Of a DNA stretch of 64,000 bases, positions 24,926 to 64,000 are shown piece after piece. Under the pieces are notes generated by a model, which saw only the letters and a list, made by a program, of their open reading frames with translations, did not search any database and was not told the DNA's origin. The stretch lies in assembly GCA_029962745.1 (NCBI GenBank), contig CM057154.1, forward strand, positions 24,461,998 to 24,525,997, given 5' to 3'. The stretch comes from Echinometra lucunter. Its lineage: Eukaryota; Echinodermata; Echinoidea; Camarodonta; Echinometridae. Numbering within the stretch: the stretch's first letter is position 1; every line of letters begins with the position of its first letter. Both the position numbers and the translations under genes were made by a program.

Positions 24926-25283
24926 GTGATGGGATATATGAAAGCTATGTTCTTTGTATGGGCATGTCTGTTGGATACACCTTTTCATCAGCAGCATTAT
25001 AATGAGCATTTTTATATCACTATGACTAAATTTTTACAAATATATTACAACGGGATGAAGCGAGTGAAGATTGTATGCACCTTGTGCATTGCTAGATTTA
25101 TTTCCTGAGGAAGCACCCACAAGAACCCTTTGACGCTAAAATGCTATACATATGTTGTATATTATTAAATGATGGTAATAATAGTAATACTAATAATAAA
25201 ATCAACAATAGTGACAATAATAATAATAATAATGATAATAATAGTAATAATAATTAATGACACTAAAAATGATAGTAATAATG

Positions 25284-25314
<31 letters not shown>

Positions 25315-25342
25315 TATTTCCGAAGTAATACAATTAATTCTG
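24926..25342. repeat. Sequence duplicated in inverted orientation at 63602-64000
   Basis: Reading the - strand from 64000 leftwards reproduces this stretch base by base, with only about four substitutions and a length change in the AAT tract. The match runs up to the edge of the N gap on this side and off the window end on the other. Confidence 0.93.
25204..25314. repeat. AAT-type microsatellite beside the gap
   Basis: Interrupted AAT triplets. The inverted copy near 63632-63760 has fewer repeats, as expected of alleles. Confidence 0.8.
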
Positions 25343-25842
25343 NNNNNNNNNNNNNNNNNNNNNNNNNNNNNNNNNNNNNNNNNNNNNNNNNNNNNNNNNN
25401 NNNNNNNNNNNNNNNNNNNNNNNNNNNNNNNNNNNNNNNNNNNNNNNNNNNNNNNNNNNNNNNNNNNNNNNNNNNNNNNNNNNNNNNNNNNNNNNNNNNN
25501 NNNNNNNNNNNNNNNNNNNNNNNNNNNNNNNNNNNNNNNNNNNNNNNNNNNNNNNNNNNNNNNNNNNNNNNNNNNNNNNNNNNNNNNNNNNNNNNNNNNN
25601 NNNNNNNNNNNNNNNNNNNNNNNNNNNNNNNNNNNNNNNNNNNNNNNNNNNNNNNNNNNNNNNNNNNNNNNNNNNNNNNNNNNNNNNNNNNNNNNNNNNN
25701 NNNNNNNNNNNNNNNNNNNNNNNNNNNNNNNNNNNNNNNNNNNNNNNNNNNNNNNNNNNNNNNNNNNNNNNNNNNNNNNNNNNNNNNNNNNNNNNNNNNN
25801 NNNNNNNNNNNNNNNNNNNNNNNNNNNNNNNNNNNNNNNNNN
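25343..25842. other. Assembly gap of exactly 500 N
   Basis: A run of 500 N. A round number indicates a scaffolding gap of unknown true size rather than a measured one. Confidence 0.97.
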
Positions 25843-28264: not shown

Positions 28265-28321
28265 ATTATCAGTTCCGTCGATAACGTAAGGTGTGCTGAA
28301 ATTGTCATCTCGTGCAGGCAT
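28265..28321 (-). CDS. Exon: cytoplasmic tail segment 2
   Basis: Acceptor TTTTTACAG, donor GTGAGT, 57 bp, phase 0-0. Encodes [19 protein letters not shown] in frame after the previous exon. The good donor predicts at least one more exon. Confidence 0.72.
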
Positions 28322-31300: not shown

Positions 31301-31516
31301 CTCCTTTGCTTGCGTAGCTCACGATCTTGAGCAAGCCTGCCCACAGCCTGTCCGACAGCAAATTCACGCTGGTCGAAAGAAAGATCTTGAGAACGACTAT
31401 CCTGGGATCCCATCCATGAATCGCCGCTGTAGAAGAAAGGAGCCTCCCTGTCGTACGTCTCATTGAACCGCTCTCTGCAGGGAATAAATATTGTTCTATT
31501 AAAATATAGATTATAC

Positions 31517-31573
<57 letters not shown>

Positions 31574-32537: not shown

Positions 32538-32588
<51 letters not shown>

Positions 32589-35500
32589 GGGTATATTTAT
32601 ATATGTATATATATATACCCATACATACATACATACATATATATATATATACACATAATGGTATAATGCATGGGGGAAAAACATATACTGGTGTAACGTA
32701 CAAATAATAATAACCTGAAATTATGTTTCTATTTCCATATCAACATAAAAAAAACAATACATGACAATCAACGACAAATTGTAATAATGCAGGACAGCCC
32801 ATTTCATTAGCATTTTTAAAAAATGCAACTGTTCTTCCATGTGGTCAAATTTTTATATGTATATATATATATATATATTCCAGTTTATTTATCATCTCTA
32901 AATTACACCGGTATGGTTTTTTCCATGTTTCAAATAAGCAAAGGCTATCAAGGCAGGCTGCGCTAATTGAGCCGTTTTGAGGAAAGGATATTAGTGGAAG
33001 TAATGTGAAAAAGTACAATCCTTCTTTAAGAAGCACCCCTTCAATTATAGAACGCAATAATTCAATGGAACCACCTAGCTTCTGCTGAACAGTGCCTCAT
33101 ATATATAGCAGGCTATATGATTGGTCATCACACATCAGTCAATGAGGGATTTTCATTTTCTTCGATAGCTCCTTACGAGCTTACCTGAGCATGAGTTTCG
33201 TAGCTTGGTTCCGAGAGGCCATCTGCATCATGACGCAACAAGTACATAAGATGAAGATGAGAAGAGCTCCAATGATGCCAAAAACGATCCCCATAATAGC
33301 ACCGATTGATAACCCTTCTTCAAGAGCTGTTTAATGGAAAACAGACGAAAGAGAATTTAAAAAAAATAGAATGAAAATACGCAAACAGATATTCCTGTGG
33401 GTTTCACTTCATTTCAATCATAAGTAAAATACAAATATGAAATTTAATGCCTCTGAGTGTCTATAAAATAAAGCCCCTCTTGTGTCCTACGTGTATTTTT
33501 AAAGATAACCCACAGGTGAATTAACCAAGGAAAATATATACTATTGTGATAAAGCTCGAAGGCCCAAACTCACAAGCGCCCACAAAACCTCCCATGACCC
33601 TAACAACACATACTGCCGAAAGACATTCTCACACGCACAAACACACACGCACACATCCGACCTCCCATATCCATGTCCGCAGTTGGAGTCATTTGCAATG
33701 CATTTATTTAATTGGAAAATAGAGAAATATGTATAAATGACTTTTTATTACTTGTAACAGAAAAGTCTGAAACATCAAGTTCGCCGAAATCCAAGCCATC
33801 GTCTTCACTAGAGAGTGCACTAGCTTCTTGGGCGAGAGCATCTGCTTCAGGTGCAGTATCTGCCCGGAGAGCTATTTGCAAAGTGGCAACGACACTACCA
33901 TTTCTAAAAGACAAGGCGGTACATCCGACCCTCCTCAGGGTTGATGCAAGTTGTTTCCCGAAGAAATATCTCACCTACGAATAAAAGTGAATGCAATAAC
34001 TTTATGTTTTAGTGACCTGGAAAAAAAAAAACAACAACAACACGGGCGCACGTGGGGGTGGGGGTGTATACACTGCACATGTATTCGATTAACTACTGAA
34101 AAGGCATTTTATATTACAACAGGGAATAAATGATATCACCCTAGCCTGAATAATTGCAGCAATGGAAATGCACACCTGAAAAACCACCTGGGCCGGTATT
34201 CTGAAAATCGTGTTACCTTTGCAATCAGAAATAGCGTACGCCATTAGCTCACATCGCGCACTTTTGTCTTGTGTGCTGGTAATTTGCGTAGTTTGTACCA
34301 ACCATAAGTACGCGTTTTAAATTTGTTATGACAATTAACACAGTAAAGATAAGACAAAAGATAACACGATTTTCCGAATACCGGCCCTGAGGTCGGGACA
34401 CTTGAGTTCGAGATACCTCAAGTTGACAACGGGACTTAGAAAAAATTTTGAGCAAAATAGAGCTCGTACTTTACTGTATACGTGTCGGTGCGGGTGCGGA
34501 CTATCGTACTTCATGGCAACCTCAAGTCGACATGCACACCTGAAAAACCAATTGAGGTCGGGACACTTGAGGTCGAGACACCTCAAGCCGACAACTGGAC
34601 TTAGAAAATTTTCGAGCAAAATAGAGTCCGTACTGTACGTATGGGTGCCTGATATACTGCCCTGCATGTTATTGAACTTTATTGTAAAAATAATCTGTTC
34701 AACCTCTCTAGCTGTCGCCCGTTTCATATCACATCTCTTTATTTTCATTTAGAATAGTTAATATTAACTTTAATTATGTTTCAATCCTTAACATTTTTCA
34801 AATCAAAGTTTGTACAGTGGATGACAGGAAGGGGGTTGGTAGATAAATAGGGGGATGGTTGTCGACTTGAGGTGTCTCGACCTCAAGTGTCCCGACCTCA
34901 GGTGGTTTTTCAGGTGTGCATGTTGACTTGAGGCTGCCATGAAGTACGATAGTCCGCGCCCGCACCGATACATATACGGTATAGAATAGGCCTTATTTTG
35001 CTCAGAAACTTTCTAAGTCCCGTTGTCGTCTTGAGGTGTCTCGACCTCAAGTGTCCCGACCTCAGAGTCAGGTGGTTTTTCAGGTGTGTATTTGCATTGC
35101 TGCATATATATATATATATATCCCAGGTGAACAACTACATGAAAATCTAAGAAAAAAAAAGTATGGAACTTAATGCCCAGAACAATAAGACGCACCGTAA
35201 AATACAGTCACCTTATTTCATGGAGTTAAAGCAAGTAATGATAATGCAACAGATAGAAAAATGGCCCTCAAAACAGAAATCAACACACACTTATTGCTGT
35301 CAGAGGAAAAATACAAGTGGCATAAATGACACGAAAAACCGTTATAAACTATCAAAACTAGAAAGAGGAAAATATGTTAGGTAATAGTTAAGCAGATATC
35401 AGGACACTGAAGAGAGAGAGGGTAAATGAAAATAAGATGAATAAGAGAATGGGGAGACTTATTACTAATGGACCGGGTTGTCCCTGTATAAAGCCCATGG

Positions 35501-38500
35501 GAATGGGAATGACAGAATTTAGTAGTCAAATGGTTAAAAGGCGAGTGAAGAGAAGTGGCGAAATGGAAGTGCATGGAAAATATTGATTGTTAAGTAAAAG
35601 AGGTAAAAGATGGGAGAAAGCTAACCGATTAATCAAACCAATACCTCTGGGTCATGCTAGTTAATTGTGAGGAAAGGTGGCTATTCATTACTAAGATCCT
35701 AATCACAAAGCCGACAAAAGGGAGAACCTAGGCTCAGCGTATGCTCTATAAACAGGCCACTACTCTTCAAACTCACCGCATTGCAAAACTGAGTCTGGAA
35801 AGTTTGGAATTTCTGTGATGACGAATCCTCCAGTTCCGCGGTGTATGTGAGCGGTTCACCATTATATTGAGTTGCTCTGATGGTCATTACAACCGTCCGG
35901 GTGACCAATTCTAACAAAAAAATACGCCATGGAATCAAGTCGGAACAGGCTTACTTCGAACCATCGGGTCTTCGCGTCGGGCCGTGTAATCGCGTAATGC
36001 GACCTTTCGTGATAAAAAGCCCTTTTATTTACGAAAGGTCGGGTTCACCGTTTGAGAAATATACCAATTAAATCTACGAAAAGTCGGGTCCATTAACCCG
36101 ACACTTCGTAGAAATTAGCTAGCAAATATACGAAGGGTCGCGTCCTAAACGCACATTTCTACAACAAATAATTTGACGAAAAACGGCTTGAATAAAAGCT
36201 AGCATTTGATTCGTACAGAGTCAGCCTTTGCCACGGAAAGTCCAGAGGTGAGTACAGTTTAAATTTCGCTAATTTGTCAAAAAATAGAATCTATTCCTAA
36301 TGAGTTCTACATTGTGCCAGATCTGCGTTAATTTCTTTATATTTTCAAAGAACTGCTCTGAGCTGTATGTCATGAAATTATGTGCTATAAACTCACTAAC
36401 TTTGTAAACTATTTTCATCGTCGGCAGCTCATTGTTACCGCTGCACCCTGTCACGACGCAACATCTTGCCCAGACTTTCGGGCGGATTGCCTATGATTGT
36501 AAATGCAATGCAAAAAAGGTTGACAGCGAGATTCAACGTTTATTTTATCCCACCTACATGCATAGTGTGTTGGCGAGTTGACGAATTAGTTATCCTGAAT
36601 TGTTGCATGATGTATAACTGTAAAGCAAGGGGGAGGGCGAGGCGGGGTCTATGACTGTGTGTACAGTAAGCTCAGATTTCAAAGACGGCATAAGGAAGCA
36701 TAATGAGACTAGGTATGATTTAATCCAGCAGTGTAACAGGGCTGCGTTTCACGAAACCGTCATAAGTCTAAGTTCATGGACATCCCATAGAAACGCGCGT
36801 TTTTTCTACAACACGCGTTTTAATGGATGTCCAAGAAGTTAGACTTATGACGGTTTCGTGAAACGCAGCCCTGGTTTTTGTTATCGAGGGGGGGGGGGGG
36901 GGAGCCCAAAATTTCTAGTAACTCGGTCAAGAATCGGTGGCATAGCTATGATTTCATTCGACTTTGAGGGGAGCGGTAGTGAGTACACAAAGCATTCAAA
37001 ACACTGAGCACGCGAAGCACACTCCATAGGGGGGAGGGTGCAGGGAGGGAGAGACTACCGCCCCCTTAAGTGAAATACTAGCTATGCCACTGATTCTAAA
37101 TTTACTTACCAGGAAATTTTTGGCTCTGTCCCCCCCCCCCCCTTTCTTCTTTTTTTTTCCATATCTCTTCTTCTTTCTCCCTTTTCTTCTTTCTTTCCTT
37201 TCTCCCTTCCTTTTTCTTCCTTTCACTTTCTTTCATTTTTTTCGTGGTGGTTTGGTGGATTTTCCCACTGAAATCCTTCAGGGGGAACTCTGTCCCTCCC
37301 TCCCATGCCCCTGGTTGTTACACCACTGATTTAATCTTTTATTTGTTTTGTTTTTGTTCATCAGATTGAACATGCTGCATTTATGTCTGCATCCACATCA
37401 TGTTGGAGATGTAGGTGATGATTGCTTGTTGACTGAGACTCAAGAAAGTTTCTGCAAGATATGAGTTAGTCTACCACTCCAGTTATGGAAGGTAAGTGAA
37501 TTCTGCATGAATTTAATAAGGTTGCTACATGTACAGGTATGTCAATATTCAGCCAGGGTTTAGCATCATTTAAAAGGCCATTGGCCTTGGTTGCAAATAC
37601 ACCCATCCTTGAATTTATTTGTAAACCCTGGCTGAATATTTTTTTTTTATTATTATTGTCTCCTTTGAAAATTTCATCAGTCTGGCATGATGAATATTTT
37701 TCTTCCTTGAGTTTCATGGGCACCAGGATCAAAATATCTCACCAACATTTCTTGCTTACACTTCATTAAGAAATGTATTGCTTAGTTAAAGCTAAATAAT
37801 TGTTCAGCTTTACTTGTTCATTTTTGCTATACAAGCAGAAACTATATTTTGTTTTCTGATTTCCTCTCATTTCATTTGCAAGTTTGTTTTTTATTATTAA
37901 ATTTCAAGTTGAGATATTCATTGTTCAATATGTGTTTTGTTCTAAATTTCTGTTGTATAAATTTCAATTATATTTTGAGTTCTGTGAAATAAACTAAAAT
38001 GATTTATAAACCTTGGTCTGCAAAGGTAAATATTGAGTGCTCCTACTGTCCATAATTTGTACATGTACTTTGCATTTATCTTAATTCAATTCAACTTTCA
38101 ATCTCATTTTTTTCTTTAACAGAAAGAATTCAGCTTCTACTCTTCATTGCATTGGACCCCTGCTTTGGAGATCTGTCTCTCAATGAGTGAGGAGTCATGG
38201 CCCTGTATGCAGCAGGGGGGGGGGGGGGACGGGAGCAGTAGCCAAACCCACAATTCAATTCAATTCAAAGTTATTGATATGCAATCTACAATTTTGGATT
38301 ATTATCGACATACAAAATGTTGTGCAATGTCATTAAACAAAGTTACAAACAAATAATTGCATTATTTTTTTTAACTAAACCCCTCCCCATAGGTGTGTGC
38401 GAATTATTTGAAACTCTTCGAGCAGATTATTGTTTCATTTGAGGATTTGAAAATACATAAATTTAGTACAGTATACTAGTAATTTGAATTGAATGATGAG

Positions 38501-39571
38501 TATGTAAGTTTCAAAATTACTGTTTTCAGTTGCGTTTTAATTGATTTTATTAATTTCTTCTAAAGGGATGTGGAATAGCTCATTCTTCCTGAGTTGTGCA
38601 CAACATCTGACTATGAGTTCTGTTAATGATTTATTTACAAGTATTATTTAAAGTAGAGAAGGATTCTATTGGGCCTTGATACATGTTAGCAATTTGAATT
38701 ACTAACATTTGAATGGTAATGATGTAAAACTCTATAGTCTGTTCTTTATTTTGTTGTAAGTTGTAAACAGAGTATATGATTTTAAAAAATTGTTATTAAT
38801 AATATGAAATATATTTTACTTTTAATTGATGAATGAAGGCTGATGTAGTTTCCTTTTTATCGGAATGAACCTATTTTAACATGTACATGACTGTAATCAC
38901 CATGCAGAAAAATAATCATTACATAGCAAATTCATTTTTTTTTTTACTACAAGTGTACTTTGATATTGATTGTGTAATCCCCAGCAATTTTTAAAAGAAT
39001 GTGATAATTGTCATACATGTATCCGGGACATGTATACATGCATATCTAAGAAAATACTGAAGCCCCCTCTTATGAAATGAATATGGGGGTAGGTGAAAAA
39101 TGAAGCAACCAAGAGGGTGTGTTCAATACTGCTTTCACACCAAGGTCGCAGCGACCGATGAAATCATAATGTGAAAGCATTTCATCGGTCGCTGAGTACG
39201 GTCGCTGAGGTACTTCAGCGACCGATCGCGACCGATGCAAGCTAGATGTGAAAGCACATCGTACTCAGCGACCGATCGAAATGCAATGACCCCCATACAT
39301 GCCTACGCACTATATCTACTTCCGCTTCCGGCTAGGTCAGCTATACAGCGACTGATCGCTCTGGGCCTGACCAAATTTTGACGGAGGTGTGAAAGCACGT
39401 CCGATCGGTCGCTGGGTACGGTCGCGACCGTACCCAGCGACCGTACCTTGATGTGAAAGCAGTACAAGAGAGATGGAAAGGGTTGGAAAGAGAGATAGAG
39501 ATAGATACAGGAAGAAAGAGATGAAAAATCAATTCAGGCAAGATTATTTGATGAAAATTCGAGGGTGTCCA

Positions 39572-39605
<34 letters not shown>

Positions 39606-51600: not shown

Positions 51601-52610
51601 ATTGGCTGTATCCCTCGTATCAAACATCTAATACCCCCCAAAACTCGAATGAACTTTTATTTTTCTCTTATTTTTATCTTACCACATATCGACTATTGTT
51701 GCACTACATGGGGAAAATGTTCAAAGATAAATTTAAAGAAATTACAAAAAATGCAAAATAGATATGCGAGATAAATTTAAATAAGGACTACGACACACCC
51801 CGTTGTTTACTGCTTACAACTTTGATCTGGCAATCTATTGACCAAAGAATAAAATATCACTACTGTGTGTTAGTCTATCAAATTATGAATGCCATGGCCC
51901 CGACGTATTTAAAATCATCAATCAGTTATAGCACCTCCAACTATTGTACCTGGTATTCTTTAAATTCTCTACTTGACATTCCGTACCCCAAGAATGAATT
52001 TTTAAAAGAGATCATTCGCTTCTAAAGCAAGTTTCCTGTTTAATAAACTCCCTTTCGCAGTCCAATCAACTAAACGAATTGAAATATTCAAGCGCGGTTG
52101 CCGATTGGCAATATATTCATTGCAATAGAATCTCTGCTCTCATTTTCCTTATCTTATTTTCCTGTCATCCCTAATGTCATTTTAAGTGACTGGCATTGTG
52201 CTATGCCTGTCATTTTAAGTGACTGGCATAGTGCTATGCCAGTCACCTCAGAGAATCTATAATTCCAGCTGGAGCAGCTCGGTGTGTAAGGTATATTTGA
52301 TTATTATATAATGCTATAAAATGAATAATCCATACCCGAAGTAATTGGTCCCGCCGATGCTGAAGCCGTTGACGTAGATTCCAAAGTTCTGTTCGTTGTG
52401 GACACTGTAATAAAGCCACAAAATGAAGGACATTACAGTTTTTCTAGTTGATAGTAGTCATGAAGTACTGCATATATGACATACTGATAAGTTGATACAT
52501 TTCACGTTTTTATGTCAACATTGAAGATTCAGATTAAGTGTTGCGATTTAGCAATTTTAAGACAGTTCATATATACATATGTACATATATATATATATAT
52601 ATATATATAC

Positions 52611-52691: not shown

Positions 52692-52737
<46 letters not shown>

Positions 52738-53551: not shown

Positions 53552-53588
<37 letters not shown>

Positions 53589-56500
53589 TAATAATAATAA
53601 CAATAATAATAATAATAAAATAATGATAACAGTAACAATAATACGGCAGGTCAATGTTAACGTTTGGTAAAATATAGACAATATGATAAGAATGCTGCGT
53701 TTGTATGTAAAATTCTTTACATTGTGCATTTAAACTCAAATAATGCATTTAAAGGCATTGGCTAACTTTGTGAGCAGCTGATTTAAAAAATTCTCAAACT
53801 AAGATGAAACATGTGTATGAGTACTTGTATTTATACTAAAAAACCCAGAAACCAACCATAATTTGGAAGGAAAAGCTGTAAATTAGACGCAAACCGCGAT
53901 TTTATTAGCTTTTGTCTCGAGAGACACTGAACTAAGAGGACCGTTTGGACGAATTCAAAAATACCGTTACTTGCCTTCCGCCGCGTGATACGTCAATACA
54001 CACAGTGCGGTCCGTTGAGTCATGTGCGCATGCGCACTCCTTACGTTGGGTCTATGCAACCGACCCTCGTATATTTTTCAAACATTGGTTCACATTTCTA
54101 ATATTTAAAAATACTTCCCGTGGATATTATGCTCTGAAACTTTCACACTGGTATTTTTACACTATAACCCTAATGTTTATCCCATTTTTAAGTAACAAAA
54201 TGAGATTTTTTAAAAATCATGACAATGTTAGCCAATGCCTTTAAGGTTAATGTCAGGCTGACATTTAAAAAGATAGCTAATAAAAATCATTCACATTCTG
54301 CTAATTCGAGGGTGAGTTTCTGAAGAAATCGTCGTCTGATCTGGGAAATGTTTGGTCGTGTACAGCAAACTGCCGGTGGTCTGGTCGTGTATACAACAGA
54401 TCCTGCAGTCGCCTGGTCGTCTATACTGCAGATCTAGTCGTCTAGTCGTATACAACAGACCGGTGATCGTCTGGTAGTGCGGTAGTCAGCTGGAGTTGTC
54501 TTGCAGAAGGGGTTGGTGGTGCCAAAGTCAGTTCGGGCAGTATACCTATGCCAAACGGATCCATGGCCAGAAGTTTGGAACCCGACTTAGTGAATCTGCC
54601 GGCAAAAGGCACCCTGACAAGACTACCGTGGACAGATTTCGACAAAGTCACCGGTTTCGTCACAATGCCTTAGCTAGACTTATTGCTCACAGAATATTCC
54701 TAAAGCAGGTAAGTCGTTCATTTTTGCTATAATGAAAAATAATACAAACTCAAAATAAAAAAGAAGAAAGGACAGAACAAAAATAATAAACTTACACGAC
54801 CGCAAAGAGCCTCCGAAAACCTCATAAAAGCCTCGGATGACCTGTTTGACAGATCAGTATCAAATGGAGCATCAAATGTGATGGCGATGGCAATTGTTAC
54901 ATCTGAAAACAAATAAAGAACGAATAAATCCTATGTTATACATCATTGAAAGGCACAGAGTCTACTTTCTTGATTTAGGGAAAAAAATGAAACATAGGAA
55001 AGAATAGTGCTGTTACCTACAGTTATTTGAAATTAATACGATTTGTTCTTAACGAACATTTTACAAATTTCTTGAATACGCCCTGGATATAGATCCCCAC
55101 AATACAGTTCCAGATCTTATTTCGACACTCTCCATGAATCACTCTATATTAAAAAAAGATGAACCACGTTGGAATTTGAGATGTTTAAAAGATAATCTAT
55201 GATAAAATCCGAATTGTATATCAAATCGAAGATACGGAAATAGTCCGCATATGCTCAAAGTATAAACCATGATTTGTACATGGACAGATATGGTCCGTAT
55301 TGTTTCAAAGACCACTGGTTATTTATTATTTCTGATAGATGACATATCGTTTTTGTTTTTTTTTAATCTTAGTATTTCAGTTATTGGCATTACTCATTTT
55401 AAAAGCGTTTTATTACTTTCTTGTGAATATTGCCTCACTCGAGTTTGTACATTAGTTATCAATTAGATTCATATTTTATCTGGTGTCAATGAAATATTGA
55501 GAATGGTTTATCAAATTAAATGATAATCTTATCTCTCATGAAATGAACGAACGAGCCATTGTCACTGAACGGTTTCGAGGTACGCTTCATTGGTAACAGA
55601 GAGGTCTTAAAAAGGAGCACCAATTTTATCAATGGACCATACTTATTCATACATGAATGATCACGATTTGTAACTAAAGGCGAGGAAAAGGATATTTCCT
55701 TTGCTTCAGCTTGATATACAATGCACATGATTTTATGATAAATTGAGAATTTTCAACTTCAAAAAAGGTCAACCTTATCCTTTACAGTGTGATTTATGTG
55801 TAGTGTCGATATAAGACTTGGCTGCATTGTCCCCATGTATTTAGCAAACACAGTCCCGGAATTTTCTTTGTTTAGGAAACTTTATTCCTTACATAACTTT
55901 CACTAGTCCAGCGTCAGTGAAGAGGTAAGTACCCCCTCTCCACAAAAACATATAGAATAAAAAATAAATATATCCTCTTAATTCTATATTTCTGTTACCT
56001 GCCCCCTAATTGGTCAGAATTTGGGAGATGATGATATCAAAATATGCTACAAGTATTTCGCAACTTAGAGGATGAACTTTTTCATATACGCACTTATCGA
56101 AGGCGTTTCTATCATTGTAGTAGTTGCTGGTGTTGACGTAGTCTCTGTCACGGTTTTGGTGTCCGATGTTGACGTAAACGTCTGTGTCATGGTCGTGATA
56201 TCAGGTGTTGACTGAGATGCACCTGGCATGGTAGTGGTGTCAGGTGCATTAGTCACTGTTGTAGCAGTAGATGTATCCACTGATAAAGGAAAAACCAAAA
56301 GAGGATTTAATTCATTTTTTTTTTTAATCGTATGTCGCATCAGCATCATGATTCACCCATTTTGCGAATTATGCTTCATTTTCACTCGCTTAGGAAGGAC
56401 ACGGAAAGAAAAAAAAAATCCCATTGTTCTTATACAGGTTTCCCCGCCCATTTTCGTTACCTCTTCATTCAATTGTCAAAAGTGTGCTTTCAATTTCGTC

Positions 56501-58641
56501 CTCTTTCAGTATACTGAGAAACGGAAATCGAGCATACATTTTATGAACACTACAGAAGAAACAGAAAACAAGCGGGGCAACAGACAAAAAAAAAAAAGAA
56601 GCAATCTATGACAGGGTTCGAGGAAGAGAGGAGAGAGGAAAAGAGAAGCAAAGTGGAGAAATATGCAACCATGCAACATATTATGGAAAAACAAGGATTT
56701 AAGTAATTACAAATTGAGAATATGGTAAAGTGGGTAGCTAGAAATATCACTACAGATAATATCCCGACCGCCATGTGTGCGAGGAATTTTCTGAGCATTG
56801 CTCAAAAAACAAACAGAGAAAGTAGTTCGATTCGCAATATTCCCACTGATTCATTGCCATAACATGCCGTTACCAAGGCGACACAGTCTGTAGCACATTA
56901 AAAAAAATTGTTCTTGCACATCCTACCCAAAGTTAATATGTGTGCCAAATTTCAACAGCAATATGTCCCCTATTTATTGCATTATGGCACATTAACCATG
57001 CCAACGCATGTCTAACCCGTTAACTAGTGAATTCTTATATTCCCAAAGACTTAATACAGGGGTCATCCGGTTCCAGCAACCAGTGGGTTAACACATTAAT
57101 AAATACGTCTGGCACATCTTCACAAGACAAATGCGTGTGTCAAATTTCATGAGCATTGCTTAAAAAACATGAGAAGTTTGATCAGCAAGATTCGCAAAGG
57201 ACCGACCGCCCGACCGACTGTACGCTGATTCAAATGTATATATATATATATTGAAAGAAATTTGACAAATGCAAACAACTATGGCACCTCCCTTGTAAAT
57301 AATAAACGCTGAAAGAAATGAAAATGGGGGAATAATAATTGCGTAGCTCCCTCAATGTTCCCCAGAGCTGTCATCCATTTTGAATCAAGGGTTGAAAAAA
57401 TGCCTCCGCCGGGAATCGAACCAGGGTCACTGGCTTAGAACGCCAATGCCTTACCACTAGACCACAGAGGCGGGCGAGCAGTTAGGCGTGACCGAATCTA
57501 ATTGACCGACAGACAGATTTCCAACCCTTTTTGATTCTTTATTTTGCTGCAGATGAGTTAATGATCAATGAGAAGCCGCGTGCCGCAATTGGATTTCAGC
57601 TAGAAGCCTGGATACATGCATAAGTCAGAATGAGGGGACAATACATTGAAGGAAATTTGACAAATGCAAACAACTTTGGCATCTCCCTTGTAAATAATAA
57701 GCACTGAAAGAAATGAAAATGGGAGAATAATAATTGCGTAGCTCCCTCAAGGTTCCCCAGAGCTGTCATCCATTTTGAATCAAGGGTTGAAAAAATGCCT
57801 CCGCCGGTCAATTGGATTCGGTCACGCCTAACTGCTGGCCCGCCTCTGTGGTCTAGTGGTAAGGCATTGGCGTTCTAAGCCAATTATTATTCTCCCATTT
57901 TCGAATTTTAATTTCTTTCAGTATATATATATGTATATATATAAATGTAAGGCATGTAGCCGAAAGCTCGGGACATTAAAGTGGAATTATACAGCTACGT
58001 CCGCTGTCTTGCGTGTTTCATTCTATATGTATATATATATACATGTGAGACAATTGAGAGAATAATAGCGTAGCATGAATCAAAGTTCCCCAGAACTGTC
58101 TTACCATTTTGGAAATTTTGCAAAGGTTGAAAAAAGTCTCCGCCGGGAATCGAACCCGGGCCTTTGGGTATGAACGCCAATGCCTTAACCACTAGACCAA
58201 GGAGACAGGCCAGTGGTTTCGGCGACTCCGAATTCGCTTAACCGACAGATTGACAAATGTTACTTATTCCAACATATACATGTATCCTAAAGCATTCGCT
58301 CGGATCCAGCTGAGGTGTGCGGCAGGTCATTGTTCGAAACTCATCTGCCACCGACAAAGGAATTAATTAGTGAGGTTTGAAGATTTTTCAATCTGTCGGT
58401 TAGGCGAATTTGGAGTCGCCGAAACCACTATCCCGTCTCCGTGGTCTAGTGGCTAAGGCATTGGCGTTCATAGCCAAAGGTCCGGGTTCGATTCCCGGCG
58501 GAGACATTTTGTTCAACCTTTGCAACATTTCCAAAATGGTAGGACAGTTCTGGGGAACTTTGATTCATGCTACGATCTCAATTGTCTCACATGTATTTAT
58601 TTCCACGAGAGTTGCCAAGGCTGTTGTATATGTTACCTGAT

Positions 58642-58737
<96 letters not shown>

Positions 58738-61700
58738 ACAGCAGAATTATTCATACCCCTGTGAATATGTGCTACACATGTAGCTTTTTTTTAAATTACT
58801 TTAAAGATAATGCAAAAAGTGGTCAAATGCACCTCATGCTTATTTAACCCATATTTCAATAAATTTATATGAGATTCCTCCGGCGATTTTGAAAAGCGCT
58901 CTCATTTTGGGCCACTTTATAGATTCCGTAATACAAAAGCAGCTTCTTTATGAATAGCTCTAATCAAAACTAATGCAAAAAGTGGTCAAACAAGACTCAT
59001 ATACTTATTTAACCAATATACACACTTTATATGGGATTGTGTCGGCCATTATGAAAAAAGCGTCCGCACGAAAAAGAGTTCTCAGGATACAACCCGTTTA
59101 CCTCAGATATTCTTGTTCCCCATGAAAAACTGGTCCAGAAAAACCAATGAGAATGTTTCCTTCTCTAGGTGGCACCTCCCTCAATTATAACCCGGACTAA
59201 TTTCCCAGAAAAGTCTGTTCGAACATTAAACAATTTTTTTTTTAATTTTTATCCAAAGTCACTTACAAAAATTATACCATATCCTCGAGTGTGAATTCAT
59301 TCCAATATACAGGCCAATCAGTGAACAAGCAATTCACAAGTATGCATGGACATGACATTACGACGAAATGAAAATGTTATAAATGTTTTTAGACACATCC
59401 TCCGGTGATCACTTGGCCGTGAAGCCCATAAACTAACCGAATACTGCACTTTTATTCTTGGAGCAAAAACAAAAAAACAAAAAACAAAAACAAAAACAAA
59501 CAAAAAACTATACCAAACCCTAACAATTACTTCAATATCAGGCCCCAGCCTACAAAACCTATTGCAACCCTGACCCTAACTACGTATCACTGACAAACGA
59601 AATCCCGGACCAATCATCGCCGGAGAATATGTTGGGTCATCGTTCAGGACAATAACATTGCTCATTGCTTACCTTCTCGGCATACAACATTTTCTTTCCC
59701 CGCAGAACCGAATCGCCGGCTAAGTGGCAAGGCGTCATTGAAAGCAGAATCTAATGTTATGGTGGTGATACTTGACGATATGTTGACATCCACCCTGAAT
59801 TCTATCCAAACACACGGACTGGTCACATTTGCGTTTGCGATTATAACGCTGAGTACATTGTCCCCGAGTTCAGGAGTGGACTTCAGATATGAAAGCAGCT
59901 AAAATAATATATTCATATGAGACTTTATTTTAAAAGTGAGATTTCATGCAAAGAATGATTTGATAGATAAGTTAACGGATTACCTTTGTTAACTTGTCTT
60001 ACATAACATGTCTTATAACATGCAGGTAATGATGTCTAGCTGTAAACGTTATCCATTATGTGCAACGCTGGTTTTCAGCTGTTGTGGACAATGAATAAAT
60101 AATTACAGTGAGTCTTAAAATATTTCGTAGAAAGGGATTTGAAATTGAAAGTTGCACAGGCAAAATAACTGTATATGTATATGCGCCCCCCCCCCCATCC
60201 CAAGTATACAGTTTGAAAAAAAAAATGCCATATAAGAATTTCAAAATATTTCCGGAAATTTTCATACCGGTGGATAGCCCAAAGACTCTTCTATCAAGCC
60301 CCACCAAAAATCTCCAAAGAATTCACGCTTGAAAGAGCAAAAGTAACTTTTGTTATTTTGGGATTGAGTAAGTGTGTGATTGGTCGTTTTTTTGTTTTTT
60401 TGTTTGTTCTGAGTGATACTAAAATTGATTGCCTGACTGATTGGTTGATGTTGGACTGCATGACTGTATGCTGATATTCTAATCCTGACATACATAATGT
60501 GCCAGTTTTAACATATTAATGTACATTTGTAAGAATTGACCTACAATGAATATTTCAAATCAAGCAGTGAAGTATTCAAATCCTCATTCAAGCTTGACAT
60601 GTTAATGATTTATATCAGAACATACGTACAACCAAAGATAATTATAATTTGTTGTAAATGTATCACAATATGAACATTTCTCAGCCTTTAGAGTTCACAC
60701 TACCCTAGCCCCGCTGATATTAAGCAGAACCGTACAAATTCTTGTCAAGCTCAAATTGTGCACCCTTTCAAAACAGTTATGTCTATTCACTGAAACGTAA
60801 AATATTTGAGATTTCGGGATGGCCATGGGCTTTCCACAGGTGTGACAATTCCGTGATAATAATTTGAAATGTTCAGGTGGTTCGAATTTTTCCAACTCTA
60901 CATTTTTTGGCGTACTGTATATATGAATATATCATTCTTTAAGAAGAACCTTTGTATTATAACCAATGAGAATTTGTTAAACGTTACGGATTAGTCACTT
61001 AGAATAAAAGCAAACTACCTGCACAAGTGACACTTAATCTTCGATTTAAATAGAATGCTAATGAAAAGAAATCGGATAATCCTGGTCTTTATTGTAATCT
61101 AAAAGTATCTCTTTGCAAGTACATAACCATACTTTATCTTGTACCTGTATATAAACCATGTCAAATTGTAAAAACAACCACTTCACCTGAAGAGAATTAA
61201 ATCGAAAGCGCTTGTGAAGTACAAACCAGGTTACCCTGTGTTTTCCATATATAATTGTGAATCTTCTATATAGTTTTTTCTGATATATATATATATATAT
61301 ATACATATATATGTATATATATTATGCAATATCAGAAGCCCTGCTAACATGACTGCTTCAAGATTTGCCGCCTTTAATTCACTTTCAATTATTCCACGTA
61401 TCGAAGCAAATACAAAGTGTCAACAACTGACAAATATAGGATATGACATCTTCATATGACGTCTTTCAAGTACACATATGTAGTTATGCAACAAGACATA
61501 ATAGGGGCCTTTATACTTATTGATATGAATATTTGAAGAGTTTAGATGCAAAAAAAAAAAAAAAAACCTTGAATTTCTTCTTGCTAAAGTGAGATATTAG
61601 CAATCAAAAATCGTGGAAAATGAAGAAAACATTAATAAAATATATGCGACTTTTGACCATACCTTCAACAATATACCTTTATATCATATAGCGTATGTAT

Positions 61701-63417
61701 AATACGCGTTGTTTTTTGTTGTGATTGGTTAGATTTGCATCAAGTGATGTGTGTAAATTTGGTTATAGTGCACGATCTTGCACAACTTTGATTTTTGCAA
61801 GGGGAATCCCGTGCTAATTGAATGGGGACGAGATATAATGTTAGGCATTTATTTACTTTTCTACTTAGTATTTTCGTGCACATAATTATATTATATTGGA
61901 TGGCTCTGAATGGAATACCAGAGAATATTCCACGAATTAGGGCTAATATTGCACAAATCGAGAATGAGTGCAATGTAGGCCCTAACGAGTGGAATATTCC
62001 TGGTATTCCATGAAATAAAGCCATCCAATACAATTATTATTATCTATACCCAACAAAAAAGGGATTTAAAATTCAATAAAAGTCATTTCAGCAACTAAAT
62101 AGGGCCCCCATCATTCATTTATTTTGATCACACAAGTTTGACTTGCCTCTTTATGACGTCATCAGTGTCGTTTTTGTAATTTTGTACATGAGCCTATGGG
62201 GAATTCGCCGTTTTATACAATATGCTCTGATATTGTACAGACAAGAAATATGTGTTTTAATGTGCCGCAAAAATGCCCTATGTAGATAATAAGCCAGTAT
62301 ATTGCATGACAGTTAATGCACTATCCATATGTAATGAATATTATTTCATTTGAAAAGTATTATTTCGTATCATATGACGGTGAAATTATATCACAATTTC
62401 AAAAAATGACCTTTATTTGTTTTTACATATCAACTCTTTATTTGGTAAAGATGGGTAATTCCTGAAATTATGTAGACCGGCAATCCATTTACTAAAGAAC
62501 TTACATCGTTTGCAAGGGCACGTTTAATTTCTAGAGATTCGATGACAGACGGATTGCTCTGAATAACGGTTCCTTGGACAGCTTCAAATCTTACTTTCAG
62601 TCGCAATGTAGTGGAGGCTATAACATGACCAAAAAATAAGAAATTTTTATAGGTATATCTAAATATACATTTCTTTCTAAATAACAGGATTTGCTGAAGG
62701 TAAAATCCATTCCTATTTAGGATAATGTGTGAATTACAGATATTAATAATAATTCAAAGGTTTAGAAGTGCGTGACATCGTAATAATTTACTGTGAGATT
62801 TAATAACGTAGCATTTCACATTTCACTGGAAGCGATTCCTCTGTCGCACTGAATTGCACATCATTTATACATATGTATATATGTTGTCTTCAAATGAACA
62901 ATCAAATGTGAATAAACAAAACGTTGACTGCTTTAAAAGAGCACGGTTGAAGGCATAGTCTAAGGAGTTATCGAATCTGTACTGTACTATACTTGTGGAA
63001 ACGTATTCATTTGAAGGGAAATTTACCAACCTAAGAGTAGCATGTGTACTTGGCTTACTGCTCTGCACGTATTCTTTAATCACATATGCCTCTATTGCGC
63101 CTTTCCCTTATTCACGCAAGAAGTATACCCAATCAATATTTCCCGCCACTCTGCACGGCAGTCAGTAGTAAATTTCATGTCTGCAAATTTGGCCAATCAG
63201 AGGCCTAGAATCTCCACATGTGGTATATGACAGAAACTGTTAAATTCGACTATCTGTTATCCTTTCCTCGTATGTAAGACAAGTTATATGCTACCTATAC
63301 AAACTCCATCAATCTCTGTGGATTCATCAGGGCACACACAACTGAAGTTTCCCACATTGTTGAGACACACACGACTGGGATCACATCCATGGGAGTTTGA
63401 TGTGCACTCGTCTAGAT
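28265..63417 (-). CDS. Mucin-4-like membrane protein, C-proximal part (EGF, three SEA domains, mucin linkers, TM, tail), 15 exons
   Basis: Gene-level entry for the - strand exons listed below, read from 63417 down to 28265. The order is one calcium-binding EGF, SEA domain 1 (two exons), a Thr-rich mucin exon, SEA domain 2 (two exons), four short Ser/Thr/Pro exons, SEA domain 3 (two exons), a transmembrane exon and two cytoplasmic exons. All phases fit; each SEA exon pair sums to a multiple of three (339, 327, 357 bp), and each mucin exon is itself a multiple of three. SEA domains next to a membrane are typical of shed or autocleaved transmembrane mucins. The stop codon was not found. It is probably the continuation of the + strand gene across a misoriented contig; otherwise it is a paralogue running in the opposite direction. 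Confidence 0.85.
28903..30694. mobile_element. TIR-bounded element enclosing a T-rich minisatellite
   Basis: The left end CAGCTTGAGCAAAAGACGCT and the reverse-complemented right end CAGCTTGAGCGAAAGACGCT form a TIR of at least 20 bp with one mismatch. The core (about 29130-30560) is T/C-rich with the recurring unit TTATGTTATTCTTTGTTTT. No target duplication is evident, so mobility is an inference. Confidence 0.6.
29130..30560. repeat. T/C-rich degenerate minisatellite
   Basis: About 1.4 kb built from variants of TTATGTTATTCTTTGTTTTC spaced roughly 50-60 bp apart. Strong strand asymmetry keeps several + frames open (up to 329 codons), giving Phe/Leu/Ser-rich translations with no protein-like features. 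Confidence 0.85.
31279..31474 (-). CDS. Exon: cytoplasmic tail segment 1
   Basis: Acceptor CCCTGCAG, donor GTAAGT, 196 bp, phase 2 to 0. Encodes [20 protein letters not shown], then a charged stretch with [13 protein letters not shown] acidic/aromatic sequence, [15 protein letters not shown] and NRPVQ. Tyr residues (ETYDRE, FFYSGD) are candidate sorting or phosphorylation sites; this is inference. No enzyme domain seen. Confidence 0.8.
31569..32536. mobile_element. Foldback element with about 230-bp inverted arms flanked by (TA)n
   Basis: The left arm (31569-31800, from ACAGAGTGAGTAAAAAAA) and the right arm (32309-32536, ending GACTCACTCTGT) are inverted copies. Both include ATGCATGACTGAATAACAGA or a variant, and TGCTGGGAGGATAACTCT. 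The core holds GAT and GT simple repeats. The TA-rich flanks are consistent with TA-targeting mariner-like elements but do not prove it. Confidence 0.72.
32536..32650. repeat. (TA)n microsatellite
   Basis: Long TA/TATG alternation beside the foldback element; a matching tract lies at 31508-31570 on its other side. Confidence 0.8.
33185..33326 (-). CDS. Exon: transmembrane helix and juxtamembrane Cys cluster
   Basis: Acceptor TTAAACAG, donor GTAAGC, 142 bp, phase 1 to 2. After LEEGLS comes a helix of about 24 residues, [20 protein letters not shown], followed by CTCCVMMQ and [10 protein letters not shown]. The small-residue pattern GxxxG/GxxG may support helix packing, and CTCC is a likely palmitoylation site (inference). 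Positive residues after the helix fit an extracellular N-terminus. Confidence 0.88.
33752..33974 (-). CDS. Exon: SEA domain 3, second half, with GSVV motif
   Basis: Acceptor ATTCGTAG, donor GTAATA, 223 bp, phase 0 to 1. [18 protein letters not shown], then [19 protein letters not shown] domains that cleave themselves do so at G-S in GSVVV-like turns; here it is GSVVA. The rest ([17 protein letters not shown]) fits the second SEA helix. Confidence 0.86.
34154..35104. mobile_element. Large inverted-repeat element with ACCTCAAG/GAGGTCGGGACA modules
   Basis: The left part (GCAGCAATGGAAATGCACAC, then CACCTGAAAAACCA) is mirrored at the right end (GGTTTTTCAGGTGTG, then GCATTGCTGCA). The module GAGGTCGGGACACTTGAGGT, with ACAACGGGACTTAGAAA, occurs twice in tandem on the left (about 34387 and 34553) and again inverted on the right (34861-35075). 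A separate MITE interrupts it at 34191-34386. Non-coding. Confidence 0.8.
34191..34386. mobile_element. 196-bp MITE nested in the inverted-repeat element, 3-bp target duplication
   Basis: Terminal inverted repeats GGCCGGTATTCTGAAAATCG and CGATTTTCCGAATACCGGCC. It is flanked by CTG on both sides (34188-34190, 34387-34389). The uninterrupted module near 34890-34915, reverse-complemented, reads CCACCTGAGGTCGGG with one CTG, so the empty site is visible in the same window. A 3-bp duplication suggests PIF/Harbinger-like or CACTA-like mobilisation. Confidence 0.85.
35777..35910 (-). CDS. Exon: SEA domain 3, first half
   Basis: Acceptor TTTTTGTTAG, donor GTGAGT, 134 bp, phase 1 to 0. [20 protein letters not shown], then [18 protein letters not shown] and QTQFCNA, which match SEA beta1 and helix 1. 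The 3' splice site is 28 bases from the 9-bp target duplication of the 5.9-kb insertion. Confidence 0.85.
36737..36873. mobile_element. 137-bp hairpin MITE
   Basis: The arm CAGGGCTGCGTTTCACGAAA (on to TCTAA) is exactly mirrored at 36839-36873 (TTAGACTTATGACGGTTTCG and on to CCCTG). A second inner palindrome of the form GACATCC..GGATGTC is also present. Nested in the 5.9-kb element. CAGGG ends recall hAT-type MITEs, but no 8-bp duplication was seen. Confidence 0.8.
37080..37330. repeat. Dispersed repeat with CT-rich core, copy 1
   Basis: A poly-C/CT-rich core is followed by GGTGGTTTGGTGGATTTTCC, CTGAAATCCTTC and TTACACCACTGA. The same order recurs at 41040-41570, in the same orientation, about 4 kb away. 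Confidence 0.65.
39129..39462. mobile_element. 334-bp MITE with TA flanks and GCGACCGATC modules
   Basis: Ends CTGCTTTCACACCAAGGT and ACCTTGATGTGAAAGCAG, flanked by TA on both sides. The internal sequence is built from many direct and inverted copies of CAGCGACCGATCG/GTACGGTCGC. Nested within the 5.9-kb element. Transposase class unassigned. Confidence 0.8.
39995..41570. repeat. Mosaic of repeated G/C-homopolymer units
   Basis: Units containing AAATTTCCCGGT, TCTAGAATC, GTAGTGCTCC and CCTCCCGCGCGAAGCGCGGA recur at about 36880, 39995, 40560, 40680, 40790 and 41020. A GAGCGAGCGAAGCGAGCGAG / CCAAAAATAACCACTTTTCT array lies at 40120-40350. Copy 2 of the CT-rich repeat sits at 41040-41570. Non-coding. 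Confidence 0.6.
42360..42830. repeat. Second copy of the GAGCGAGCGAAGC / AAATAACCACTTTTCT array
   Basis: The GCGAGCCAAAAATG, CCACTTTTCTCG and AAATTCTAAAATATGATGGT units match 40060-40560. Like that copy it ends with a run of C near GGAATTTACGTCAATG. It lies outside the 5.9-kb element, so the family is dispersed. Confidence 0.65.
43647..43902. mobile_element. MITE-like element, about 255 bp
   Basis: The left end CACCTTAAAAAAATATTGGG is mirrored by the right end ACCCAATACTTTTTACAGTG. The core contains GGTTAATTATGTGTCCAACC and inverted relatives. Confidence 0.6.
44239..44313 (-). CDS. Exon: mucin-like linker
   Basis: Acceptor TTTGCCAG, donor GTGTGA, 75 bp, phase 1-1. [20 protein letters not shown], then SFPRT. 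Ser/Thr-rich and without Cys, as in O-glycosylated linkers. Confidence 0.82.
44539..44598 (-). CDS. Exon: duplicated mucin linker, short copy
   Basis: Acceptor TCCGTTAG, donor GTATGC, 60 bp, phase 1-1. [20 protein letters not shown] sister of 45022-45093 lacking four codons (SPET region). Confidence 0.83.
45022..45093 (-). CDS. Exon: duplicated mucin linker, long copy
   Basis: Acceptor TCCGTTAG, donor GTATGC, 72 bp, phase 1-1. [20 protein letters not shown], then SQS. Pro/Thr/Ser-rich. Confidence 0.83.
45094..47313. other. Intron, no gene recognised
   Basis: AT-rich. A possible element end, TTAAAGGAGAAGTC, begins at 45239, but no matching inverted end was found. Simple A runs near 45950, 46340 and 46620. 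Confidence 0.45.
47314..47390 (+). tRNA. tRNA-like sequence with A and B boxes (probable pseudogene)
   Basis: It has GGTGCCG pairing with CGGTACC at the end, an A-box-like TGGTCGAATGG, and a canonical B box GGGTTCGATCC. The D-arm resembles Ser/Leu tRNAs. Four extra bases between the T-arm and the acceptor, and a poor anticodon stem, argue for a degenerate or SINE-type Pol III unit rather than a working tRNA. Confidence 0.45.
47402..48439. mobile_element. 1.04-kb TIR element flanked by TTAA
   Basis: The left end AAGCCCCCTCACACCTAACC is mirrored by AGGTGTGAGGGGGCT at the right; the inverted repeats are about 15-20 bp. TTAA lies immediately outside on both sides (47398-47401, 48440-48443), as for piggyBac- or Kolobok-type insertions. 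Many TTCGTTCG-like motifs inside. No transposase frame seen. Confidence 0.75.
48669..48884 (+). pseudogene. LINE ORF1 C-terminal fragment
   Basis: Translation includes [20 protein letters not shown], then [20 protein letters not shown]. This matches the (I/V)xEDLTK.N..L....R.......WT.DG.V pattern at the end of many LINE ORF1 proteins. The N-terminal part is missing. Confidence 0.7.
48985..52130 (+). pseudogene. LINE ORF2 remnant: zinc module, endonuclease, reverse transcriptase
   Basis: The start reads [19 protein letters not shown], then [10 protein letters not shown] (zinc module). Endonuclease motifs follow across frames: [28 protein letters not shown] and FSDHC. The RT part has [56 protein letters not shown] in place of (F/Y)ADD, and [10 protein letters not shown]. 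Frameshifts and stops (for example near 49440-49460, 49880 and 51775) make it inactive. Confidence 0.88.
52336..52404 (-). CDS. Exon: mucin-like linker after SEA 2
   Basis: Acceptor TTATTACAG, donor GTATGG, 69 bp, phase 1-1. [20 protein letters not shown], then TS. Ser/Thr-rich linker. Confidence 0.82.
52572..52735. repeat. (TA)n microsatellite
   Basis: Interrupted TA repeat about 160 bp long, intronic. Shorter relatives lie at 52930-52952 and 53168-53184. Confidence 0.85.
53239..53458 (-). CDS. Exon: SEA domain 2, second half
   Basis: Acceptor TTGAAACAG, donor GTAAGA, 220 bp, phase 0 to 1. [20 protein letters not shown], then [24 protein letters not shown] and [16 protein letters not shown] fold pattern; the cleavage turn reads GSTKAE, so self-cleavage is doubtful. 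Confidence 0.85.
53556..53640. repeat. AAT-type microsatellite
   Basis: Runs of AAT with GAT/AAC interruptions, in the intron between SEA 2 exons. Confidence 0.8.
53753..54240. mobile_element. 488-bp TIR element with TTAA target duplication
   Basis: Ends AGGCATTGGCTAAC and GTTAGCCAATGCCT are perfect inverted repeats, with TTAA directly outside on both sides (53749-53752, 54241-54244). Consistent with a non-autonomous piggyBac- or Kolobok-type element. Located in the intron splitting SEA domain 2. Confidence 0.85.
54310..54480. repeat. Degenerate short tandem repeat (GGTCGTGTATACAACAGA-like)
   Basis: Variants of CTGGTCGTGTATACAACAG occur about five times at 25-35 base spacing. The following 250 bp are GC-richer than the surroundings and open in several frames, but match no family I know. 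Confidence 0.55.
54796..54902 (-). CDS. Exon: SEA domain 2, first half
   Basis: Acceptor GTTTTCAG, donor GTAAGT, 107 bp, phase 1 to 0. [20 protein letters not shown], then [16 protein letters not shown]: beta1 strand and helix 1 of SEA. Confidence 0.85.
54903..56093. other. Intron, no feature recognised
   Basis: AT-rich sequence without clear repeats or exons. Confidence 0.45.
56094..56279 (-). CDS. Exon: Thr-rich mucin domain between SEA 1 and SEA 2
   Basis: Acceptor CTTTATCAG, donor GTGCGT, 186 bp (62 codons), phase 1-1. Begins [18 protein letters not shown]; Thr and Ser dominate and TTTM is repeated with Pro. Imperfect repeats of PDTTTM/PDITTM/PATTTM about 13-17 residues apart suggest internal repeat expansion. 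Heavy O-glycosylation is expected. Confidence 0.86.
57010..57095. repeat. Dispersed repeat shared with 13510-13625
   Basis: Contains GTCTAACCCGTTAAC, TTAATACAGGGGTCATCC and AACCAGTGGGTTAAC; see the copy at 13510-13625. Confidence 0.45.
57402..57471 (-). tRNA. tRNA-like module, anticodon UCU by structure
   Basis: On the - strand a 70-base cloverleaf can be drawn: acceptor GCCTCTG/CGGAGGC (one G:U), anticodon stem TTGGC/GCCAG, loop GTTCTAA with TCT at the anticodon position, and T-loop TTCGATT with one T-stem mismatch. The A box TGGTCTAGTGG and the B box are intact. Embedded in a repeat, so probably tRNA-derived rather than a dedicated gene. Confidence 0.55.
57842..57882 (+). tRNA. Truncated tRNA-like module (5' half)
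   Basis: GCCTCTGTGGTCTAGTGGTA and on to TTCTAAGCCA is the 5' half of the module at 57402-57471; the T-arm is missing. Its 3' acceptor piece sits inverted at 57797-57807. Confidence 0.55.
58136..58206 (-). tRNA. tRNA-like module, anticodon UCA, imperfect stems
   Basis: The - strand 71-mer has acceptor GTCTCCT/CGGAGAC (one mismatch), anticodon stem TTGGC/CCCAA (one mismatch), loop GTTCATA and a perfect T-arm. It is the degraded partner of 58435-58505. Confidence 0.55.
58435..58505 (+). tRNA. tRNA-like module with intact cloverleaf and UCA anticodon
   Basis: A 71-base sequence with perfect acceptor (GTCTCCG/CGGAGAC), anticodon (TTGGC/GCCAA) and T (CCGGG/CCCGG) stems, T-loop TTCGATT, A box TGGTCTAGTGG and B box GGTTCGATTCC. 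The anticodon loop GTTCATA puts TCA at 34-36, complementary to UGA. It is too short for a selenocysteine tRNA. The D-arm resembles Glu/Asp-type tRNAs. Lying within an inverted repeat suggests a tRNA-derived mobile sequence; whether it is transcribed is unknown. Confidence 0.65.
58646..58733. repeat. (TA)n microsatellite
   Basis: Near-pure TA repeat with a TATG interruption, directly after the tRNA-like inverted repeat. Confidence 0.85.
58734..59672. other. Intron, no gene recognised
   Basis: A phrase TAATGCAAAAAGTGGTCAAA (58809 and 58973) is repeated about 160 bp apart with its flanks, indicating a diverged two-unit tandem repeat. Otherwise unremarkable. Confidence 0.5.
59673..59898 (-). CDS. 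Exon: SEA domain 1, second half
   Basis: Acceptor TATTTTAG, donor GTAAGC, 226 bp, phase 0 to 1. [20 protein letters not shown], then [11 protein letters not shown] and [14 protein letters not shown]. No GS cleavage turn is visible. Ends CRE before the mucin exon. Confidence 0.83.
59899..62504. other. Intron of SEA domain 1
   Basis: Holds a poly-C run (60185-60196), a TA tract (61281-61322) and the hairpin at 61888-62037. No exon found. Confidence 0.5.
61888..62037. mobile_element. 150-bp hairpin MITE-like element
   Basis: The arm TATTGGATGGCTCTGAATGG, with ATACCAGAGAATATTCCACG, is mirrored by TGGAATATTCCTGGTATTCC and GCCATCCAATA. The loop lies near 61944-61975. Further flanking similarity is unclear. 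Confidence 0.72.
62505..62617 (-). CDS. Exon: SEA domain 1, first half
   Basis: Acceptor TGTTATAG, donor GTAAGT, 113 bp, phase 1 to 0. [20 protein letters not shown], then [18 protein letters not shown]: beta1 and helix 1 of SEA. Follows directly on the EGF exon. Confidence 0.83.
63295..63417 (-). CDS. Exon: calcium-binding EGF, last EGF before SEA 1
   Basis: Acceptor CCAATGCAG, donor GTAGCA, 123 bp, phase 1-1. [32 protein letters not shown]. Same exon type and phase as the + strand EGF array at 7936-24792. Confidence 0.88.
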
Positions 63418-63601
63418 CTGCATTGGAAAATGGATATCTGTTTTTTTTTTTTTTTTTTTTTAGTGTCTACAAGGTAATTTGAACAAGACAATTCAAGGAT
63501 ATGTAGAATTTGACTGCTTCACGTTTACAAAATCTCAATGTGACATGAAACTCTTCTTCTTGTTCCAACACACTCCTACATAGAGAGATAACTAAAATGA
63601 C

Positions 63602-64000
63602 CAAAATTAATTGTATTACTTCGGAAATATTGTTATTATTATTATTACTATCATTTTTTGTGTCATTAATTATTATTACTATTATTATCATTATTATTAT
63701 TATTATTATTGTCACTATTGTTGATTTTATTATTAGTATTACTATTATTACCATCATTTAATAATATACAACATATGTATAGCATTTTAGCGTCAAAGGG
63801 TTCTTCTGGGTGCTTCCTCAGGAAATAAATCTAGCAATGCGCAAGGTGCATACAATCTTCACTCGCTTCATCCCGTTGTAATATATTTGTAAAAATTTAG
63901 TCATAGTGATATAAAAATGCTCATTATAATGCTGCTGATGAAAAGGTGTATCCAACAGACATGCCCATACAAAGAACATAGCTTTCATATATCCCATCAC
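63602..64000. repeat. Inverted copy of 24926-25342
   Basis: Reverse complement of the sequence left of the N gap, with about four substitutions (for example C/T near 63842 and C/G near 63808) and a shorter AAT tract. It continues past the window edge. Confidence 0.93.

Follow-up and report, generated by a model that had tools for sequence, protein, structure and literature searches.

The window analysed here is a stretch of 64,000 nucleotides from Echinometra lucunter with a GC content of 36.6%, and it carries exons of a predicted membrane mucin on both strands (Table 1). Positions refer to the window (1-64000); negative positions and positions above 64000 lie outside it in the same 743 Mb assembly. 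A stretch of 314 kb, partly N, was examined, comprising the window, 100 kb on each side of it and 50 kb further to the right. On the + strand, the exons from 1434 to 4886 match residues 195-505 of P0001 (an annotated Strongylocentrotus purpuratus protein of 2008 amino acids, named 'fibrillin-1 isoform X5') with 55-77% identity per exon by tblastn. A splice-site-based scan, covering EGF-type exons of 90-300 bases, identified 15 EGF exons between 7936 and 24792, corresponding to 17 EGF modules. All of these exons are phase 1 at both ends, and their joined translation is free of stop codons. Matches to P0001 residues 195-1205 extend along the + strand from 1434 to 24788; the EGF exon at 13896-14036 is without a listed P0001 match, and the other EGF exons follow the order of P0001 as far as residue 1205. 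One spurious + strand match was also returned by the scan, in a repeat at 58458-58733. As stated in the original prediction, no 3' end of the + strand gene is seen before the gap that follows the 15 EGF exons, and this gap consists of exactly 500 N. An intron repeat at 6023-6974 is made up of two head-to-tail copies of 475 bases (98.3% identity), with another copy (96%) near 122248-122717.

Table 1 Predicted exons, sequence pieces and gaps at the locus.
Feature	Position	Strand	Basis or remark	+ strand copy
VWD tail exon	1434-1560	+	tblastn, P0001	
C8-3/MUC4-like segment exon	2285-2532	+	tblastn, P0001	
Ig/cadherin-like segment exons	2946-3133, 3299-3485	+	tblastn, P0001	
First EGF exon	4707-4886	+	tblastn, P0001	
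EGF exons 1-5 of 15	7936-8061, 9968-10099, 10434-10553, 11275-11523, 11935-12060	+	splice-site scan	
EGF exons 6-10 of 15	12707-12826, 13369-13488, 13896-14036, 14353-14472, 14945-15067	+	splice-site scan	
EGF exons 11-15 of 15	17578-17697, 17920-18036, 18693-18941, 23895-24017, 24664-24792	+	splice-site scan	
Last EGF exon, next in gene after 24664-24792	63295-63417	-	scan and tblastn	67540-67662
SEA domain 1, first part	62506-62616	-	P0001 residues 1244-1293, 44%, tblastn	68530-68640
SEA domain 1, second part	59674-59897	-	P0001 residues 1286-1360, 45%, tblastn	71206-71429
Thr/Ser-rich mucin-like exon	56095-56278	-	ORF reading; P0004 match 56268-56116	74702-74885
SEA domain 2, two exons	54901-54797, 53457-53240	-	Pfam; P0007/P0008, 46-49%	76109-76213, 77072-77284
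SEA-like domain 3, two exons	35908-35783, 33973-33753	-	P0001 residues 1730-1771, 1780-1832	89738-89863, 91662-91882
Transmembrane exon	33187-33325	-	P0001 residues 1886-1929, 57%, tblastn; span judged by eye	92300-92438
Tail exon	31470-31333	-	tblastn, P0001/P0003/P0004/P0005 tails; P0010 match 31473-31276	94226-94363
Last two tail exons, to stop codon at 27839	28320-28266, 27880-27839	-	weak tblastn, P0001/P0003/P0004/P0005 tails	95930-95984, 96369-96410
Piece with N at both ends	-80091 to -64658			
Piece with N at both ends	-61606 to -24704			
Piece with N at both ends	-24203 to -10204		14,000 bases	
Left contig, N at both ends	1 to 25342			
Gap, scaffolding junction 1	25343-25842		exactly 500 N	
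Middle contig (block), N at both ends	25843 to 66842		41,000 bases; 2,842 bases beyond window edge	
Second gap, right end of block	66843-67342		500 N	
Third contig, N at both ends	67343 to 118342		51,000 bases	
Piece with N at both ends	118843 to 161720		42,878 bases	

To the right of the gap, the 3' part of the gene is found on the - strand. Here the scan recovered a single EGF exon and, among EGF-type exons of 90-300 bases, none further upstream within the window, in agreement with the claim that the - strand gene has no 5' end before the window edge. The claim that the phases join was also upheld, with the 15 + strand exons free of stops and the - strand exon entered in phase 1 at 63417. 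By tblastn, P0001 residues 1198-1257 match the - strand at 63445-63266, and later matches run down to residue 1929 at 33187. Colinearity of P0001 with the window thus requires a switch of strand at the gap.

Profile and protein comparisons suggest that the gene encodes a MUC4-like EGF/SEA membrane mucin, biologically ordinary and with annotated sea urchin relatives. With Pfam, a He_PIG match was obtained in the 5' part of the gene (4.1e-08), EGF_CA was clear on the last two EGFs (1.2e-18), consistent with calcium-binding EGF modules in series over 15 exons, and C8-3_MUC4 was weak (1.7e-04; 21.3 bits, below the cut-off of 25). The SEA profile was matched by SEA domain 2 only (2.4e-05; 24.8 bits, below the cut-off of 26.4), which also resembles P0007 and P0008, proteins listed with PF01390; for the protein that contains the transmembrane segment along with the final SEA-like part, no SEA profile match was obtained at E <= 1. 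PF06119 denotes NIDO and PF00094 denotes VWD, and the segment at 1434-1560 is named 'VWD tail' here. With residues 1-320 of the model as query, 24 proteins were matched at E <= 0.001, the best 14 being from echinoderms and the best three (69% identity) from S. purpuratus. For the C-terminal part, no closer relative was found at E <= 0.001 or 0.01 among the ~8,000 top word-sharing candidates; P0001 itself was also not listed, so that a closer relative may well exist. The sea urchin proteins P0001 and P0002, P0007 and P0008 ('mucin-like protein') share with this gene the VWD tail, the C8-3-like and Ig/cadherin-like segments and the EGF run, in the same order, and P0001 additionally shares the SEA, transmembrane and tail regions. 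The gene differs from P0001 in its three SEA-like domains, in its Thr-rich exon and with respect to the EGF run that P0001 carries between SEA 1 and its last SEA domain (residues 1361-1729), for which no tblastn match was obtained in the 3' part of the gene.

Identity to P0001 is 55-77% for the + strand exons and 38-57% for the - strand exons (one intron-spanning match left out), dropping from 76% at the last + strand EGF to 38% at the first - strand EGF. A fall toward the C-terminus is also seen for P0005 and P0009, a pair that looks orthologous by identity, from 73% to 60% over the same two EGFs. Because the fall is steeper here, it was at first a serious possibility that the two halves belong to two paralogs, with the + and - strand genes being members of a tandem family. 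However, the contig to the right of the gap (the block) carries EGF copies of its own directly upstream of 63417, at 65037-64915 (119/123 bases) and at 64262-64134 (128/129 bases), the latter being a copy of the last + strand EGF exon, 24664-24792. As the final two + strand EGF exons recur at 97-99% identity on the - strand contig, the paralog explanation was rejected. The presence of these copies beside the last EGF indicates that the + and - halves are one gene split over two strands, as had been proposed.

The left contig and the block share sequence in inverted orientation. Within the window, 24926-25295 corresponds to inverted 64000-63628 with 97.9% identity (373 columns). Beyond the window edge, the match covers 22450-25295 and inverted 66480-63628 with 95.6% identity (2,869 columns; substitutions 3.11%), and a global alignment extends it to 25342/63602, giving ~2.9 kb (22450-25342 on the + strand against 66480-63602). 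The original prediction had described 24926-25342 as reappearing inverted at 63602-64000 with allele-like differences, and the repeated stretch does look allelic. It had also anticipated that the sequence past 64000 would continue as the reverse complement of 24925 and below and then reach a contig end. This is what we observed: the continuation includes the EGF exon at 64262-64134, and the contig ends at 66842, followed by a gap of 500 N. Both this contig end and the + strand copies of the 3' exons, which start at 67540, are located beyond the window edge. The last 362 bases of the block (66481-66842) have no match in the left contig and resemble a repeat located elsewhere.

A search of the 743 Mb assembly with 24800-25342, in which 40 of 924 candidates were scored, gave at least 96 matches, two of which span the full query (the query itself and the block copy). 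The remaining 94 listed matches are limited to the simple-repeat end, from query base 335 onward. A chance or repeat match as the source of the inverted copy was rejected, since among the matches from these 40 scored candidates the other sites cover no more than the query's simple-repeat end.

The third contig repeats the last EGF, SEA, Thr-rich, transmembrane and tail exons of the gene on the + strand (67540-96410), confirming that the contig to the right of the gap is inverted relative to the gene. Positions 25843-63601 are inverted with respect to the third contig (67343-98432), with 96.3% identity over 28,042 columns and 2.01% substitutions. The aligned overlap of the block with both flanks therefore amounts to ~31 kb of columns (28,042 + 2,869), and not to the 0.4 kb supposed originally. 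These results bear on the proposal that the gene truly continues into the block, which would be wrong only in orientation, such that flipping it in place would restore the order. The block overlaps the left contig in dovetail fashion and has the predicted contig end, both of which fit this proposal, as does the colinearity of P0001 across the flip. However, the third contig has the same 3' exons already on the + strand and joins the left contig without a lost base, and the aligned columns would stand twice in succession after a flip, which makes this explanation very unlikely. Thus, the orientation error and the single gene proposed at the outset are retained, but the flip is not retained as a repair, since the 3' half of the gene would stand twice.

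The junction of the two flanks is exact in the frame of the block. Left-contig base 25342 aligns to block position 63602 and third-contig base 67343 to 63601, with zero bases lost or doubled. An ungapped test of this join with 50 + 50 bases gave one mismatch in 70 counted columns and no indel, with one further mismatch among 30 columns set aside as simple repeat. In a 200-base test, the left half of which consists of simple repeat, 202 columns aligned at 92.1% identity, with gaps in 5 columns and mismatches in 11. With 25342 and 67343 abutting and the 3' exons on the + strand, the primary sequence is contiguous once the block is removed. This zero-base abutment indicates that the left and third contigs adjoin and carry one + strand gene.

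When exon segments of the block are compared with their + strand copies (segment ends, and the frame of one segment, being chosen by the analyst), all 14 align without gaps and differ at 25 of 1,933 bases. The codon changes comprise 12 non-synonymous and 13 synonymous ones, and no premature stops were found in these segments. The substitution level of 2-3%, the open exons in both copies and the same exon order suggest that the two copies are likely alleles and not recent paralogs. About 10.4 kb of the 41-kb block lies outside listed matches of at least 500 bases (27,793 block bases being matched to the third contig and 63628-66480 to the left contig). This includes the block's last 362 bases and ~5.9 kb at 35947-41824, perhaps a mobile element, which is found only in the block and is absent from the + strand counterpart at 89699-89707; ~1.4 kb at 79402-80835 is found only in the third contig. 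Elsewhere in the block, a reverse transcriptase fragment lies on the + strand at 51127-51771 (RVT_1, 6.1e-14), and three tRNA-like predictions (Arg and two SeC) fall within ~1.1 kb amid repeats at 57401-58506, resembling a tRNA-derived short interspersed element.

Open exons in both copies and 2-3% substitutions would also be compatible with a real inverted duplication, in which a 41-kb reversed copy was inserted into an intron of its own gene in this individual or in the species, and further inverted copies with 88-93% identity do occur nearby. Such an event would, however, have broken the gene, and its insertion point would have to coincide exactly with the switch in homology between the flanks. 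Moreover, the length of the block is exactly 41,000, and both of its junctions with the flanks are 500-N gaps, whereas sequenced junctions would be expected of a true inverted duplication. We regard this explanation as extremely improbable, and we give equally little credence to the broader version of it, in which a self-inserted inverted copy breaks one member of a fast-evolving sea urchin mucin cluster that is more generally prone to inverted duplication. The orientation of the block, opposite to that of its counterpart, could also reflect an inversion polymorphism, with a second haplotype truly reversed at this locus and both haplotypes listed in succession in the assembly. But the exons are in normal mutual order and the flank matches run through the split point, so that no breakpoint is seen inside the block, and in Hi-C scaffolds the orientation of a short piece carries little weight (PMC6719893). 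A true inversion is thus almost certainly not the explanation.

The 3D-DNA fine-resolution editor setting has a default of 1,000 bases. Among the seven fully N-bounded pieces, three have a length exactly divisible by 1,000, compared with a chance expectation of 0.007 pieces. Piece lengths of exactly 14,000, 41,000 and 51,000, together with gaps that are uniformly 500 N long, are indicative of Hi-C scaffolding. 3d-dna and SALSA2 are described as inserting gaps of 500 N by default (PMC6952475), 3D-DNA as having a fine-resolution setting for its editor (PMC7585841), and short contigs in Hi-C scaffolding as commonly inverted and unreliable in orientation (PMC6719893). Immediately to the left of the window lie 10,204 N (-10203 to 0).

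On the basis of sequence comparison, we hold with high confidence that the 41,000-base block is most likely a haplotig carrying the second haplotype of a single membrane-mucin gene, and that Hi-C scaffolding likely placed it here in reverse orientation. As the two outer contigs abut with zero bases between them and the third piece measures exactly 51,000 bases, the left and third contigs were likely a single contig until a misjoin editor cut it at 25342|67343, on a 1-kb grid. Contacts of the haplotig with both flanks plausibly drew the block into this cut, where the scaffolder would have placed it, similar as it is to both sides, in inverted orientation. The true gene would lie on the + strand, reaching from the contig on the window's left across 1434-24792 and on to 67540-96410. 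Very probably, then, the assembly is better repaired by setting 25843-66842 apart as an alternate haplotig and linking 25342 directly with 67343 than by flipping the block in place.

Similar arrangements are seen elsewhere in the stretch. The 14,000 bases at -24203 to -10204 are an inverted copy of -47138 to -33232 (92.9% over 10,995 columns), and carry the gene's 5' exons on the - strand, where the preceding piece has them on the + strand; this is a second inverted copy of the block's kind, to the left of the window. The end of the piece from -61606 to -24704 overlaps window positions 1-5015 with 97.4% identity. Within this one 314-kb stretch, the neighbours of five of the six 500-N gaps share matches of at least 500 bases (the exception being at -80591). 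At these five gaps the aligned columns common to the two neighbours amount to 2.9 to 40 kb, in four cases in inverted orientation. The pieces at 67343-118342, 118843-161720 and 162221-214000 share pairwise 16-40 kb of aligned columns at 88-89% identity and 6-7.5% substitutions, two of the three pairs being inverted. These pairs are more diverged than the allelic ones and, like the two rightmost pairs with 6-7% substitutions, may be real local duplications.

Annotation of the scaffold as it stands would yield a convergent pair of broken genes along with a spurious inversion and a spurious 41-kb duplication, where there is likely one complete gene. Sequence shared between the neighbours at five of six gaps suggests that inversion, gene-duplication and copy-number calls near gaps in this assembly may be unreliable. 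Checking whether two outer contigs abut to the base when aligned to the contig between them provides a simple, read-free test for such insertions. The apparent inversion would be an assembly artefact, and nothing biologically new is claimed.

The locus resembles the retained haplotigs, or false duplications, of Hi-C scaffolded assemblies of highly heterozygous animals, with which it shares a near-identical, intron-bearing copy placed beside its counterpart, gaps of a fixed 500 N and a split gene model. The usual retained haplotig, however, mimics a tandem duplicate, whereas the block described here sits inverted inside its own counterpart, at a cut in the primary sequence, and mimics two convergent broken genes.
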